DNA of 64,000 bases, from NCBI GenBank assembly GCA_009996615.1, contig JAACZU010000001.1, forward strand, positions 124,001 through 188,000, read 5' to 3'. The notes below the pieces were generated by a model. The model was not told the DNA's origin and did not search any database. It saw only the letters and a list, made by a program, of their open reading frames with translations. Position numbers and translations under genes: made by a program. The DNA is from Rhodanobacteraceae bacterium (GTDB lineage: Bacteria; Pseudomonadota; Gammaproteobacteria; Xanthomonadales; Rhodanobacteraceae). Shown here in pieces: positions 4,023-34,317 of the stretch; positions within the stretch are counted from its first letter, which is position 1; the number at the start of each line of letters is the position of its first letter.

Positions 4023-6031
4023 ACGCACCGGCCGCCGCCAAGGTGCGCGTCAGCCGCGAGCACGCGCGCGAACTGATGCGGCAGATGGTGCTGATCCGCC
4101 GCTTCGAGGCGAAGTGCGCCGAGCTGTACGGGCAGGAGAAGATCCGCGGCTTCCTGCACCTGTACGACGGCGAGGAGGCGAACGCGGTCGGCGTGATGCA
4201 GGCGCTGACACCGGACGATGCGATCGTGGCGACCTACCGCGAGCACGGCCATGCGCTCGCGCGCGGCCTGCCGCTGACCGCGGTGATGGCCGAGATGTAC
4301 GGCAAGGCGACCGGCTGCAGCCACGGCCACGGCGGCTCGATGCACCTGTTCGACGCCGCGCACCGCTTCTACGGCGGCAACGCGATCGTCGGCGGCGGCC
4401 TGCCGCTGGCGGTCGGGCTGGCGCTGGCGGACAAGCTGCAGGGCCGCGCGCGCGTGACCTGCTGCATCTTCGGCGACGGCGCGGTCGCCGAGGGCGAGTT
4501 CCACGAGTCGATGAACCTGGCCGCGCTGTGGAAGCTGCCGGTGCTGTTCGTGTGCGAGAACAACCTCTACGCGATGGGCACCGCGCTGGAGCGCTCCGAG
4601 TCGGTGACCGACCTGTGCCGCCACGCCGCGTCGTATGGCATCGCGGCCGAGGTCGTCGACGGCATGAACGTGGTCGACGTCGAGGCGGCCGCGCGCCGCG
4701 CCGCCGAGGCGGTGCGCGCCGGCGGCGGGCCGCGCTTCCTCGAGAACCGCACCTACCGCTTCCGCGCGCATTCGATGTTCGATGCGGAGCTGTACCGCGA
4801 CAAGGCCGAGGTCGAGGCGTGGAAGCGGCGCGGGCCGATCGTGCGCTTCCGCGAATGGGCGCTCGCCAGCGGCACGCTGCATCCGGACGACCTCGACGCG
4901 ATCGAGGCCGAGGTCGCCGTCGCGATCGACGCGGCGGTCGCGTTTGCCGAGCAGTCGCCGTGGGAGCCGGTCGAGTCGCTGCTGCGCGACGTGTATGCGC
5001 CCGCGGCCGCCGCCGTCGCCGCGGAACCGGCCGCGCCGGATGCGGCGATGGGACGGCGCCGCCTGAGCTACCGCGACGCCGTGCGTGAGGCCTTGCGCGA
5101 GGCGCTGCGGCGCGACGCGCGCGTGTTCCTGATGGGCGAGGACGTCGGCCGCTACGGCGGTTCCTACGCCTGCTCGAAGGGCCTGCTGGCCGAGTTCGGC
5201 GAGGAACGCATCCGTGACACGCCGCTGTGCGAGTCCGGCTTCGTCGGCGCCGGCATCGGCGCCGCGCTCGGCGGCATGCATCCGATCGTCGAGGTGATGA
5301 CGATCAATTTCAGCCTGCTGGCGCTGGACCAGATCGTCAACAACGCGGCCACGCTGCGCCACATGTCCGGCGGCCAGGTCGCGCTGCCGCTGGTGATCCG
5401 CATGGCCACCGGCGCCGGCCGCCAGCTTGCCGCGCAGCACTCGCACAGCCTGGAAGCCTGGTACGCGCACGTGCCCGGCATCCGCGCGGTGGCGCCGGCG
5501 ACCGTCGCCGACGCGCGCGGCATGCTGCGCGCCGCGCTGGCCGAGCCGAACCCGGTCGTGATGTTCGAGCACGCCACGCTCTACAACGACGAGGACGAAC
5601 TGCCGCTGGCCGCGCCGGAGGTCGACATCGACCACGCCGCGATCCGCCGGCCCGGCCGCGACGTCAGCCTGATCACCTACGGCGGCAGCCTGAAGAAGGC
5701 GCTCGCGGCGGCCGAGGTGCTGGCCGGACAGGGCATCGACGCCGAGGTGATCGACCTGCGCACGCTGCGCCCGCTGGACCTGCCGACGTTGCTCGGCTCG
5801 GTGCGGCGCACGCACCGCGCGGTGATCGTCGACGAGGGCTGGCGCACTGGCAGCCTCGCCGGCGAGATCGCCGCGCAGCTCGCCGAGCAGGCGTTCTACG
5901 ACCTCGACGCGCCGGTCGCGCGCGTGTGCAGCGCCGAGGTACCGATCCCGTATCCGCGCCACCTCGAACGGGCCGCGACGCCGCAGGTCGAGGACATCGT
6001 CGCCGCGGCCCACCGCGTGCTGCGGCGATGA
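4019..6031 (+). CDS. 2-oxo acid dehydrogenase E1, fused alpha and beta subunits
   Basis: A 670-residue thiamine-diphosphate decarboxylase in which the usually separate E1 alpha and E1 beta chains are joined. Alpha part (1-325): GDG at about 152 and the paired asparagines near 181 form the ThDP/Mg motif, with the [10 protein letters not shown] and GGSMHLFD segments typical of PDH/acetoin-type E1 alpha. An Ala/Pro-rich linker (about 325-345) leads to the beta part (from [10 protein letters not shown], about 350), with [10 protein letters not shown] and the transketolase C-domain VSLITYGG. It should decarboxylate a 2-oxo acid and reductively acylate the lipoyl group of the next gene product. ATGA overlaps join it to both neighbours. 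The substrate (pyruvate, acetoin or a branched 2-oxo acid) cannot be decided from sequence. Confidence 0.88.
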
Positions 6032-31314: not shown

Positions 31315-32447
31315 CCGTGCAGCCTCGACGCGGCGACGCGCCGTTCGACGCCGCCCGCCTCGCCAACGCCGCGACCGCGGCGCTGCAGGCATACGACCCG
31401 GGCCACGACCTGCCGGCGTTGCGCCGACGCTTCGGCGCGACGATCGCCGAACTCGGCTCGAACGAGAATCCGCTCGGCCCCAGTCCGCACGCGCTCGAGG
31501 CGATGCGCGTGGCGCTGGCCGACACGTTCCGCTACCCCGACCCGCGCGGTGCGGCGCTGAAGGCGGCGCTGGCGCTGCACCTGGGCGTCGATGCGGCGCG
31601 CATCGCGCTCGGCAACGGGTCGCACGAACTTTTGATGATGCTGGCGCAGTGCTTCGCCGATCCGGCCCATTCGGTCGTGTTCTCGCAGTACGGTTTCGCG
31701 GTGTTCCCGATCGCGACCGCCGCGGCCGGCGCGCAGCCGATCCGCGTGCCGGCGCTGCCGCGCTCGCATGCGCAGGCGCCGCTCGGGCACGACCTGGAGG
31801 CGCTCGCCGCGGCCGTGCGCGCCGACACGCGCCTGGTGTATCTCGCCAACCCGAACAACCCGACCGGCACCTGGTTCGACGACGCGGCGCTGGAGCGTTT
31901 CCTCGCGCGCGTGCCGGCGGACGTGCTGGTCGTCGTCGACGAGGCCTACCACGAATACGTCGACGCACCGGGCGTGACGACCGCGCTGCGCCACGCCGAC
32001 CGCCATCCGAACCTGATCGTCGCACGCACGTTCTCCAAGGCCTACGCGCTGGCCGGCCTGCGCATCGGGTACCTGGTCGCGCACGCGAGCGTGGTCGCCG
32101 TACTCGAGCGTCTGCGCGAGTCGTTCAACGTCAACAGCCTCGCGCTGGTCGCCGCCGAGGCCGCGCTCGCCGACCGCGCGCACCTCGAACGTGCGCGCGC
32201 ATTCAATGCGAGCGAGCGCGCCTGGCTGGCCGAGGCGCTCGCCGCACGCGGCTACGAGAGCCTGCCGTCGCAGACGAACTTCCTGCTGATCGACCTCGGC
32301 CGCGATGCGGATTCGCTCGAACGACACCTGTTCGAGCGCGGCGTGATCGTGCGGCCGATGGGCGGCTATGGGTTGTCGCAGTGCCTGCGCATCAGCGTTG
32401 GCAACCGCGCCGACAACGAGCGGTTGCTGGGGGCGCTGGATGGGTAG
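31311..32447 (+). CDS. hisC: Histidinol-phosphate/aromatic aminotransferase
   Basis: A 378-residue class I/II PLP aminotransferase of the HisC type. GSNENPLGPSPHALEAM, LANPNNPTGTW, DEAYHEYVD and the PLP lysine in ARTFSKAYALAGLRIGYL are present. In this cluster (after pheA) HisC2-type enzymes usually serve tyrosine/phenylalanine as well as histidine synthesis. It is coupled to pheA by ATGA. The next gene is separated by a 550-base repeat region, so the operon may be broken there. Confidence 0.93.
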   Translation: MTVQPRRGDAPFDAARLANAATAALQAYDPGHDLPALRRRFGATIAELGSNENPLGPSPHALEAMRVALADTFRYPDPRGAALKAALALHLGVDAARIALGNGSHELLMMLAQCFADPAHSVVFSQYGFAVFPIATAAAGAQPIRVPALPRSHAQAPLGHDLEALAAAVRADTRLVYLANPNNPTGTWFDDAALERFLARVPADVLVVVDEAYHEYVDAPGVTTALRHADRHPNLIVARTFSKAYALAGLRIGYLVAHASVVAVLERLRESFNVNSLALVAAEAALADRAHLERARAFNASERAWLAEALAARGYESLPSQTNFLLIDLGRDADSLERHLFERGVIVRPMGGYGLSQCLRISVGNRADNERLLGALDG

Positions 32448-32480
32448 TCGGGTTGTGGCTTCGACCTTGGCCGGGTGCGC

Positions 32481-32970
32481 AGCTTTAAGCCCTCCCCTTC
32501 AAGGGGAGGGTTGGGTGGGGATGGGGTTGTTTTTGCGTCACCGTATTTGTGAAAACCGACCCGCATCCGTGCGTTTTCCGCTCGCATCCGTGCGAGCGGG
32601 TTACTTCTCTTTGCTTGTCCAAAGAGAAGTAACCAAGAGAAAGGACACCCCAACAGCGCCGCCCTCCGGGCATCCTGCCCTCTGGGTGCGTGTTCGCCGG
32701 CCGGGGTTCGCCGACGGCACATCCGTGTGCCGACGGCGAACGCGCGCGCATCGTGCGCGCGCCCCTGCGGGCTGATCCGTCCGGCGCCCACCGCCGCTGA
32801 AAGGGGACCCGAAAGAGCAACGCGCTCCTGCGCGCAGAAGCAACAACAAGAACGAAAAGCGAAAAGCCGTAGCGGAAAACGCAAGGATGCGGTTCACGGA
32901 AACGGTGACGCGAAAACCGAACACCATCCCCACCCAACCCTCCCCTTGAAGGGGAGGGCTTGAAGACCGC
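32481..32970. mobile_element. Structured repeat element with long terminal inverted repeats
   Basis: This ~490-base unit fills the hisC-aroA gap. Its ends are imperfect inverted repeats of about 90 bases. The best-matched part is CCCTCCCCTTCAAGGGGAGG then GTTGGGTGGGGATGG (32487-32525) against its reverse complement (32923-32962), and the match goes on through GCGTCACCGT and GCATCC further in. Between the ends lie consecutive hairpins: CGCTCGCA/TGCGAGCG (32579-32598), GGTTACTTCTCTTTG/CAAAGAGAAGTAACC (32599-32634), an imperfect one (32661-32685), GTTCGCCG.. (32706-32741) and GCGCGCGCA/TGCGCGCGC (32742-32762). Several have TCC or TCCG loops. There is no transposase. I treat it as a non-autonomous repeat; frames across it are low-complexity and I do not call genes. 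Confidence 0.75.
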
Positions 32971-33003
32971 TCCGCTGAAGGGGCGTGAGCGAACTGGACA
33001 CAC

Positions 33004-34317
33004 ATGACGCCCGAACGCATCGACTGGATCAGCCACCCCGCCGGCCCGCTGCACGGCGAGCTCACGGTGCCCGGCGACAAGTCGATCTCGCACCGCGCGA
33101 TCATGCTCGCCGCGCTGGCCGAGGGCGTGTCGCGGATCGACGGTTTCCTCGAAGGCGAGGACACGCGTGCGACCGCGGCGATCTTCGGCGCGATGGGCGT
33201 GCGCATCGAGACGCCGTCGGCATCGCGGCGCATCGTGCATGGCGCCGGCCTGCATGGCCTGGCGGCGCCGGCCGGTGTGCTCGATTGCGGCAATTCCGGC
33301 ACCGGCATGCGCCTGCTCGCCGGGCTGCTCGCCGGGCAGCGCTTCGATTCGGTGCTGGTCGGCGACGCCTCGCTGTCGCAGCGGCCGATGCGGCGCGTGA
33401 TCGAACCGCTGGCGGCGATGGGCGCGCGGATCGAGGCGGAGCCGGGCGGCCTGCCGCCGCTGCGCATCGCGGGCGGTGCGGCCCTGAGTGGTATTGCCTG
33501 CACGCCGCCGGTCGCCAGCGCGCAGGTGAAGTCCGCGATCCTGCTGGCCGGCCTGTATGCCGATGATGTGACCGAAGTGCGCGAGGTCCATCCGACGCGC
33601 GACTACACCGAGCGCATGCTGGCCGCGTTCGGCTGGCCAATCGAGTTCGCGCCGGGCTGGGCGCGCCTGTCCGGCGGCCATCGCCTGCATGCGACCGACG
33701 TCGTGGTCCCGGCCGACTTCTCGTCGGCCGCGTTCTTCCTCGTCGCGGCGACGCTGGTGCCGGGCTCGGCGCTGGTCCTGCGCGGCGTCGGGCTCAACCC
33801 GCGCCGCACCGGCCTGCTCGCGGTACTGCGGCGGATGGGCGCCGACATCGTCGAGCAGAACCGGCGCGAGCAGGGCGGCGAGCTCGTCGCCGACCTTGTT
33901 GTGCGGTACGCGCGGCTGCGCGGCATCGACGTTCCGGTCGAGCACGTTGCCGACATGATCGACGAGTTTCCTGCTCTTTTCGTCGCCGCGGCGGCGGCCG
34001 AGGGCATCACCATGGTACGCGGCGCGGCCGAGCTGCGGGTCAAGGAATCCGACCGCATCGCGGTGATGGCGGACGGCCTGCGCCGGCTCGGCATCGCGGT
34101 CGAGGAGACGCCGGACGGCGCCGTGATCGAAGGCGGCGCACTGCGTGGCGGCGAGGTCGCCAGCCACGGTGACCATCGCATCGCGATGAGTTTCGCGGTC
34201 GCGGCGTTGGTCGCGCGCGGCGCGGTGCGCATCGGCGACTGCGCGAACGTGGCGACCTCGTTCCCGGGCTTCGTCGAGCTGGCCAACGGCTGCGGCTTCC
34301 GGCTTGCGCCGGCCTGA
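33004..34317 (+). CDS. aroA: 3-phosphoshikimate 1-carboxyvinyltransferase (EPSP synthase)
   Basis: A 437-residue EPSP synthase, which joins shikimate-3-phosphate and PEP in the shikimate pathway. [45 protein letters not shown] and [19 protein letters not shown] cover the substrate loops. Two half-barrels of the usual size are present. The ATG at 33004 follows the repeat element directly. It may rely on read-through from hisC or on its own promoter, none of which is obvious. Confidence 0.96.

Follow-up and report, generated by a model that had tools for sequence, protein, structure and literature searches.

We asked what fills the spacer between the metabolic genes hisC and aroA in the window (the whole stretch of 64,000 nucleotides from a Rhodanobacteraceae bacterium analysed here), where an initial annotation had described five consecutive hairpins enclosed by imperfect inverted repeats of ~90 bases. 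One copy of a mobile repeat occupies this spacer. The five hairpins (loops TCC, TCCG or TCG) lie either exactly where the initial annotation had placed them or at most two bases away, and its impression of pairing far beyond chance was borne out: the folding energy was −312.5 kcal/mol for the plus strand (shuffle mean −192.5, z −18.0) and −317.6 kcal/mol for the minus strand (shuffle mean −206.6, z −17.7), and none of 100 shuffles reached the value of either strand. A search of the window against Rfam gave seven matches far below threshold, which we took as chance.

The inverted repeats are present as a left arm (32483–32582) and a right arm (32871–32965), complementary in three blocks (89, 84 and 92%; 84% overall), but they are a trait of this copy and not of the repeat family. 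BLAST with the 490 bases of the locus returned 94 matching pieces in the same genome, that is, dozens of copies, as had been guessed, and these copies match the query from positions 2–28 up to about 361–370. Judged by these matches, the unit common to the copies is not the 490 bases first proposed; it runs from about 32484 to 32845, with the minus strand as the folding strand, and the left arm is its left end. Elsewhere in this genome, every match to query positions 391–485 falls on the left end of an oppositely oriented unit. The right arm is therefore a second left end, inverted and truncated, that no other copy has.

The copy is a lineage-specific insertion at the hisC–aroA junction. We found hisC in 14 of 15 same-genus relatives (in one as a weak match only) and compared the junction in 11 of them, the other three being contig-end pieces or the weak hisC match. 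None of the 11 junctions carried the motif (E 0.001); the gap between the aligned ends was 8–64 nt in ten relatives, and one had 553 nt of other sequence between hisC and aroA. The guess of mobility was thus supported by the same site lacking the element in all 11 relatives, which are too distant for the exact insertion joints to be read. A looser DNA search found the repeat somewhere in 25 of 41 genomes (the own genome and 40 relatives). Among 30 loci taken for analysis from the own genome (L001–L030), the unit was split by extra sequence in 12 (L018–L029). Four of these were inspected: L018 and L020 have hairpin-rich inserts within the pseudoknot loop described below, with linker and stem intact, and L024 and L026 have a replacement of the linker and one stem strand. 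In the left flanks of L006, L007, L014 and L023, another repeat with GGGATG-type hairpin tips (..CCGCACAGGGATGTGCGGACCGGGCTTGCGAGCGC..) abuts the left end of the unit or takes its place.

Which strand is kept foldable, and into what? We built an alignment (A3) of the minus strand of 28 hand-picked copies, which come from 13 genomes of the own order; a length criterion had removed one fragment and eight copies carrying long insertions, and 28 of the remaining 34 entered the alignment. RNAalifold predicted 70 pairs, 50 of them with compensatory double changes. With the pseudoknot added, the structure has 74 pairs, 53 with double changes, and 95.6% of cells paired, a percentage flattered by the structure having been derived from the alignment on which it was counted, so that double changes are the better measure. 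There were 322 doubly changed cells compared to 80 (sd 10) in shuffled alignments and 38–67 when the partners were slid. An earlier alignment restricted to the pseudoknot region (A1; 32 distinct, hand-picked sequences of the own order) gave double changes in 18 of 27 pairs and 122 doubly changed cells versus 33 shuffled. The covariation that the initial annotation had proposed to look for therefore exists, with its signal on the minus strand. Wobble pairs have the same polarity: A3 contains 57 G-U and 8 A-C pairs when the minus strand is folded, and 24 and 30 when the opposite strand is folded, and the pseudoknot stem contains 193 G-U and 11 A-C pairs in 203 distinct sequences, mostly at two positions, one of which (columns 19, 54) also borders hairpin H0. 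Since double changes occur together with an excess of G-U over A-C on the minus strand only, we regard the minus strand as the selected one. As far as sequence comparison can tell, this shows that it is kept foldable as one single-stranded molecule.

From its 5′ side, the predicted minus-strand fold begins with hairpin H6 (32820–32835, loop AGGA; A3 helix 1), followed by the 5′ strands of three long-range helices, P0 (about 32801–32806), P1 (32792–32799) and P2 (32782–32791), which correspond to A3 helices 2, 3 and 4. Within them are hairpin A (CCCGCAGGG, 32763–32771; A3 helix 5), hairpin B (32742–32762, an inverted repeat in the sequence that is absent from the consensus-fold helices) and hairpin C (32706–32741, loop ACGGAT; A3 helix 6, double changes in 10 of 13 pairs). 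The 3′ strand of P2 (32690–32699; A3 helix 4) has double changes in 9 of 10 pairs. Hairpin H3 (32662–32686, loop AGGA; A3 helices 7 and 8) is paired in 100% of cells, and the 3′ strands of P1 (32654–32661) and P0 (32648–32651; A3 helices 2 and 3) close the domain; P1 and P2 connect bases more than 80 apart. The pseudoknot comes next, and 3′ of it hairpin H0 (32578–32599), with covarying pairs in both alignments (A1 helix 3, A3 helix 11). The hairpin list of the initial annotation was incomplete: it lacked the strand at 32635–32647, the long-range helices and the hairpins at 32763–32771 and 32820–32835. Its overall reading was partly supported, and the main feature, a triple-helix pseudoknot on the minus strand, was missing from it.

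The hairpin at 32599–32634 is the stem of this H-type pseudoknot. Along the minus strand it consists, in this order, of a (TGTC, 32644–32647), one C, the linker L1 (TTTCTCTT, 32635–32642), the pyrimidine strand b of the stem (GGTTACTTCTCTTTG, 32620–32634), the loop bases a′ (GACA, 32616–32619), two bases, and the purine strand b′ (CAAAGAGAAGTAACC, 32599–32613). The stem b:b′ is backed by A1, A3 and the set of 203 sequences, and a pairs with a′ through four Watson-Crick pairs in 170 of the 203 (shuffle mean 26). The 8-nt pyrimidine linker runs parallel to the purine strand, as a third strand along AAAGAGAA of b′, and follows a triplex code in which T reads A, C reads G, and G reads an inverted T-A pair. 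Over all loci, this code held in 1782 of 1824 cells of 228 distinct sequences, compared to 748–984 in six shifted registers; since T and A dominate the tracts, reading the third strand antiparallel still satisfies 1202 of 1824. For these counts, hairpins with fewer than five triplex layers had been set aside (274 of 477 for the 203-sequence set, 446 of 674 for the 228-sequence set), and the distribution of layers is bimodal.

An unselected test, independent of the five-layer cut-off, gave the same result. We scanned the named genomes with a pattern free at four positions in L1 (Y) and at four in b′ (R), which yielded at least 118 stretches. Among the matches listed, 78 of 80 distinct 39-mers fit the code at all four positions. 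Counted by cells, agreement is 317 of 320, equal to that of the Watson-Crick stem, versus 127 of 320 for the antiparallel reading; the fitting 39-mers comprise six different four-base patterns. It is known that G reads a T-A inversion in a pyrimidine-type triplex, and wherever a stem pair was inverted to A-T with Watson-Crick pairing retained, the third strand had G (11 of 11 cases, at layers 3, 4 and 6, from the six genomes G185, G197, G209, G232, G317 and G401). Outside these 11 stands L349, which has a T at layer 8 on a mismatched pair and T above it instead of G. Where the pair was inverted to G-C, the third base was C (4), T (1) or A (1). In the own genome, the strict motif in L001–L030 has two arm types, with 10 and 5 occurrences, that differ jointly on all three strands. 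A coding-sequence reading of this arm pattern was rejected, as both types occur in the own genome and the swap alters the encoded residues (by eye). To our knowledge, triple helices in natural sequences are rarely backed by covariation. One point counts against our preferred explanation: with a linker of 8 nt on a stem of 15 bp, six pairs below the triplex would have to be bridged across the deep groove without a linker.

By definition, the pseudoknot falls into ITxF class IV (Hoogsteen strand first) of the intrastrand triplex classes as defined in a section of PMC4666352, and the window copy, with 8 of 8 layers, is a potential triplex of that class; the prediction can be tested in vitro at once. 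We also considered a purine-motif reading of the hairpin at 32599–32634 on the plus strand, which fits the mirror repeat but is contradicted by the wobble asymmetry. The left end of the unit could form a separate intrastrand triplex of the purine motif (class II) on the plus strand (32490–32520: CCCTCCCC, loop, GGGGAGGG, TT, GGGTGGGG). This form is exact in 21 of the 30 own-genome loci, and its third stretch is invariant there, so that it has no supporting covariation.

How far has the element spread? A covariance model of the motif (R1, 74 positions), with at most 13 candidates scored per genome, matched 86 of the 369 class genomes sampled, representing 70 of 272 genera. Among the matches listed in the pattern scan of named genomes are Xanthomonas, Stenotrophomonas, Luteimonas, Lysobacter, Dyella and Azotobacter, further Aeromonas, Methylomonas, Thiobacillus, Polaromonas and Acidovorax, and also three metagenome bins named Desulfobulbus or Desulfobacterales, although such bins can be mixed. 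R1 misses variants: a similar pseudoknot is present in L351, whose genome is R1-negative. A strict pseudoknot finder returned nothing in 12 of 14 loci, including the motif-carrying L335. A DNA-level search of plasmid, phage and E. coli collections gave no match to the window copy. These results agree with the suspicion that the family is widespread and lacks a described function: searches of the open-access literature, made also with literal sequence strings and with subscription journals mostly outside their scope, found no account of the repeat. None of the three observations that the initial annotation had named as speaking against its reading (a single copy, no covariation in the stems, no empty and filled sites) was made.

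Motif copies are often paired. Of neighbouring motifs within 2.5 kb, 48 of 54, overlapping loci included, form inverted pairs that read outward. In G401, a genome on one contig in which we examined five inverted pairs and one single copy, two pairs share 85% identity across about 685 bp; because this identity extends through the middle, the pair itself is the entity copied there. These comparisons suggest that in other genomes the spreading form may often be an inverted pair with the folded strands outward. By eye, several ends of the G401 pairs carry an outer repeat resembling GGTTTCGCACG, and no target-site duplication was seen at the element ends inspected. The middle of both inverted pairs at L331 and L329 (G401) resembles, by eye, a REP pair (GTGGGAGCGGC..). 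Elsewhere (L069/L092, L079, L093, L094 and L215), motif pairs 1.0–1.4 kb apart enclose unrelated short ORFs, perhaps cargo. In G330 and G209 many motif copies lie at extreme contig ends, as is expected if near-identical copies break assemblies.

We next consider the domain beside the pseudoknot, which resembles TwoAYGGAY (RF01731). This family matches the domain next to the motif in L071, L072, L078, L328 and L331, and its gathering threshold was passed in the relatives L071, L072, L078, L119, L328 and L331; in L328 the match beside the motif is full-length (model 1–168, 56.6 bits, gathering 43). The window copy gave no TwoAYGGAY match up to E 5, and its genome none at E 0.001. Counted by hand, 23 of the 369 class genomes have TwoAYGGAY and 13 of these 23 are R1-positive, against 86 of 369 overall; in most of the ten R1-negative genomes that were inspected we saw no such pseudoknot. 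In L337, L360, L343, L348, L338, L361 and L342, TwoAYGGAY matches lie within long palindromic hairpins in which no pseudoknot was found, which means that TwoAYGGAY is not confined to a single kind of repeat.

Covariation across copies suggests that a structured RNA, or else a single-stranded DNA, of an undescribed kind is spreading through genomes. We lean, with moderate confidence, towards a non-autonomous mobile repeat whose minus strand is selected to fold as a ~260-nt single-stranded molecule, probably an RNA. A copy of the repeat would have inserted at the hisC–aroA junction in this lineage, and the folded molecule would be the RNA produced when the locus is transcribed. It would consist of H6, a branched domain closed by P0-P1-P2 that holds hairpins A, B, C and H3, many of them GGA-looped, the H-type pseudoknot with its 8-nt pyrimidine linker laid as a parallel triple helix on the stem, and H0. 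The triple helix may make the RNA compact and resistant to degradation, and the GGA hairpins may bind a host protein. As the acting form we consider an RNA more likely than single-stranded DNA, given the long-range domain, the wobble pairs and the match to TwoAYGGAY; the last of these counts for this explanation as TwoAYGGAY is an RNA family, found in the domain next to the pseudoknot in relatives.

Is the host protein CsrA? The element could be a CsrA/RsmA decoy RNA of the CsrB/RsmY kind, with GGA hairpins that titrate CsrA. The A(N)GGA loops of such decoys are found in it, as AGGA in H3 and H6 and as ACGGAT in C and H0. In loops 5′ of the pseudoknot, GGA far exceeds TCC in all four groups (29 to 4, 22 to 1, 44 to 1 and 97 to 12), but in the 3′ hairpins the counts are 10 to 2, 3 to 1, 11 to 0 and 11 to 13, the last, from the named set, being unbiased. 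TwoAYGGAY itself belongs to the Rfam clan CL00106 of CsrA binders. Against a decoy, csrA presence is not associated with the motif (by hand count it is missing in 11 of 86 motif-bearing genomes versus 56 of 369 overall), and the share of genomes with GGA loops does not clearly differ between those that have csrA (22 of 29) and those that lack it (5 of 8), three of the 11 csrA-less genomes having given no usable element and several being incomplete. The inspected loops of G317, which lacks csrA, have no GGA, but the same is true of most of those in G209, from the same genus and with a weak csrA match. The element is present in tens of copies per genome, and we know of no CsrA decoy found at such numbers. 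Binding of TwoAYGGAY to CsrA has been proposed in part of PMC4333381 (the family also appears in sections of PMC2864571 and PMC11701678), and a passage of PMC7694677, which also describes RsmU, states that sequenced Xanthomonas have yielded no homologue of the CsrB/RsmY type; we count both points for a decoy. Weighing both sides, we consider a decoy of this kind unlikely.

The fold could instead act at the level of DNA. REP elements are thought to be folded single-strand substrates for RAYTs. By analogy, the hairpins and pseudoknot could be recognition marks on a single-stranded substrate or target of a trans-acting transposase, with transcription irrelevant. The element is mobile without a gene of its own, its neighbouring copies are mostly outward inverted pairs, the two similar G401 pairs are alike through their middle, and a strand-specific wobble fits one chosen DNA strand equally well. 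Two transcription signals also favour this alternative: we found no promoter-like sites in 32300–33100, and T-runs are few, as among 192 elements with an H0-like hairpin four T follow within 12 bases in 3, and AAA in 71. Among the six terminator-like sites in 32300–33100 (1.1 in shuffles) four are on the minus strand, three overlapping H6 on the 5′ side and one at 32660–32644, with none after H0. We count the absent promoter-like sites, the lack of a terminator-like site after H0 and the scarcity of T-runs against the RNA reading. On the other hand, no transposase was linked to the element. None of 32 Y1_Tnp loci (30 from motif-bearing genomes, two from the own genome) has the R1 motif in its flanks at E 0.001, and Y1_Tnp gave no match in 16 of 76 motif-bearing genomes searched, including the single-contig G401. 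RAYT linkage is therefore unsupported, with one exception: in Methylomonas sp. SURF-1 (L170:4569–6324) a motif pair 1.75 kb apart encloses another ORF and an ORF (5530–5964) that by eye resembles a RAYT/Y1 transposase. One of the two own-genome Y1_Tnp matches (L060:1470–2160) is followed by a stretch that by eye looks like an IS256-type transposase. Overall, action as single-stranded DNA appears doubtful to us. We think it very improbable that the effect is one of double-stranded DNA, in which H-DNA, cruciforms and intrastrand triplexes disturb replication like BoxC/TMECO and no protein reads the fold. The left end at 32490–32520 is compatible with a purine-motif triplex, and BoxC repeats, according to part of PMC4666352, form triplexes in vitro, are intergenic and sometimes occur as inverted pairs; however, strand-specific wobble, pseudoknot pairing and long-range helices indicate one folded strand.

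Returning to the mobile repeat with a folding minus strand, a fuller version is possible and offered tentatively. It would be a selfish repeat, often in inverted pairs, that encodes a ~260-nt RNA in which an eight-layer triplex protects the molecule and GGA hairpins are presented to a CsrA/RsmA-like protein, and proteobacterial TwoAYGGAY RNAs would in part be one of its domains. If this is true, the element is a new class of large mobile structured RNA in Gammaproteobacteria. The orphan TwoAYGGAY family would gain a larger context, and groups without a known CsrB/RsmY-type RNA a candidate RsmA-binding RNA. The family is found in nearly a quarter of the class genomes sampled and in dozens of copies in the window genome, yet we found no description of it.

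The nearest described systems, judged from parts of the literature, are TwoAYGGAY and the BoxC triplex repeats (PMC4666352). With TwoAYGGAY RNA (RF01731, clan CL00106) the element shares two GGA-loop hairpins within a closing stem, but it adds the triple-helix pseudoknot, H6 and mobility. Like BoxC/TMECO/PIT, it is intergenic, has triplex potential and some inverted pairs, and its left end has a similar C-rich/G-rich/G-rich plan; it differs in that its main triplex is of the pyrimidine motif, lies in a pseudoknot and is backed by covariation, and in its longer unit. The published TMECO 9-9-9 pattern had no match in the window or in L001–L030. REP/BIME/REPIN elements and MITEs are likewise non-autonomous, present in many copies, rich in hairpins and found in inverted pairs, whereas the element has a longer unit, a conserved long-range fold and no linked transposase in 32 loci. 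Telomerase RNA and SAM-II are triple-helix pseudoknot RNAs. SAM-V is a further one, according to part of PMC6061858, and with all three the element shares an H-type pseudoknot in which the linker occupies the major groove of a stem, while it differs from them in its eight layers, in reading C over G and G over T-A, and in its many dispersed copies.
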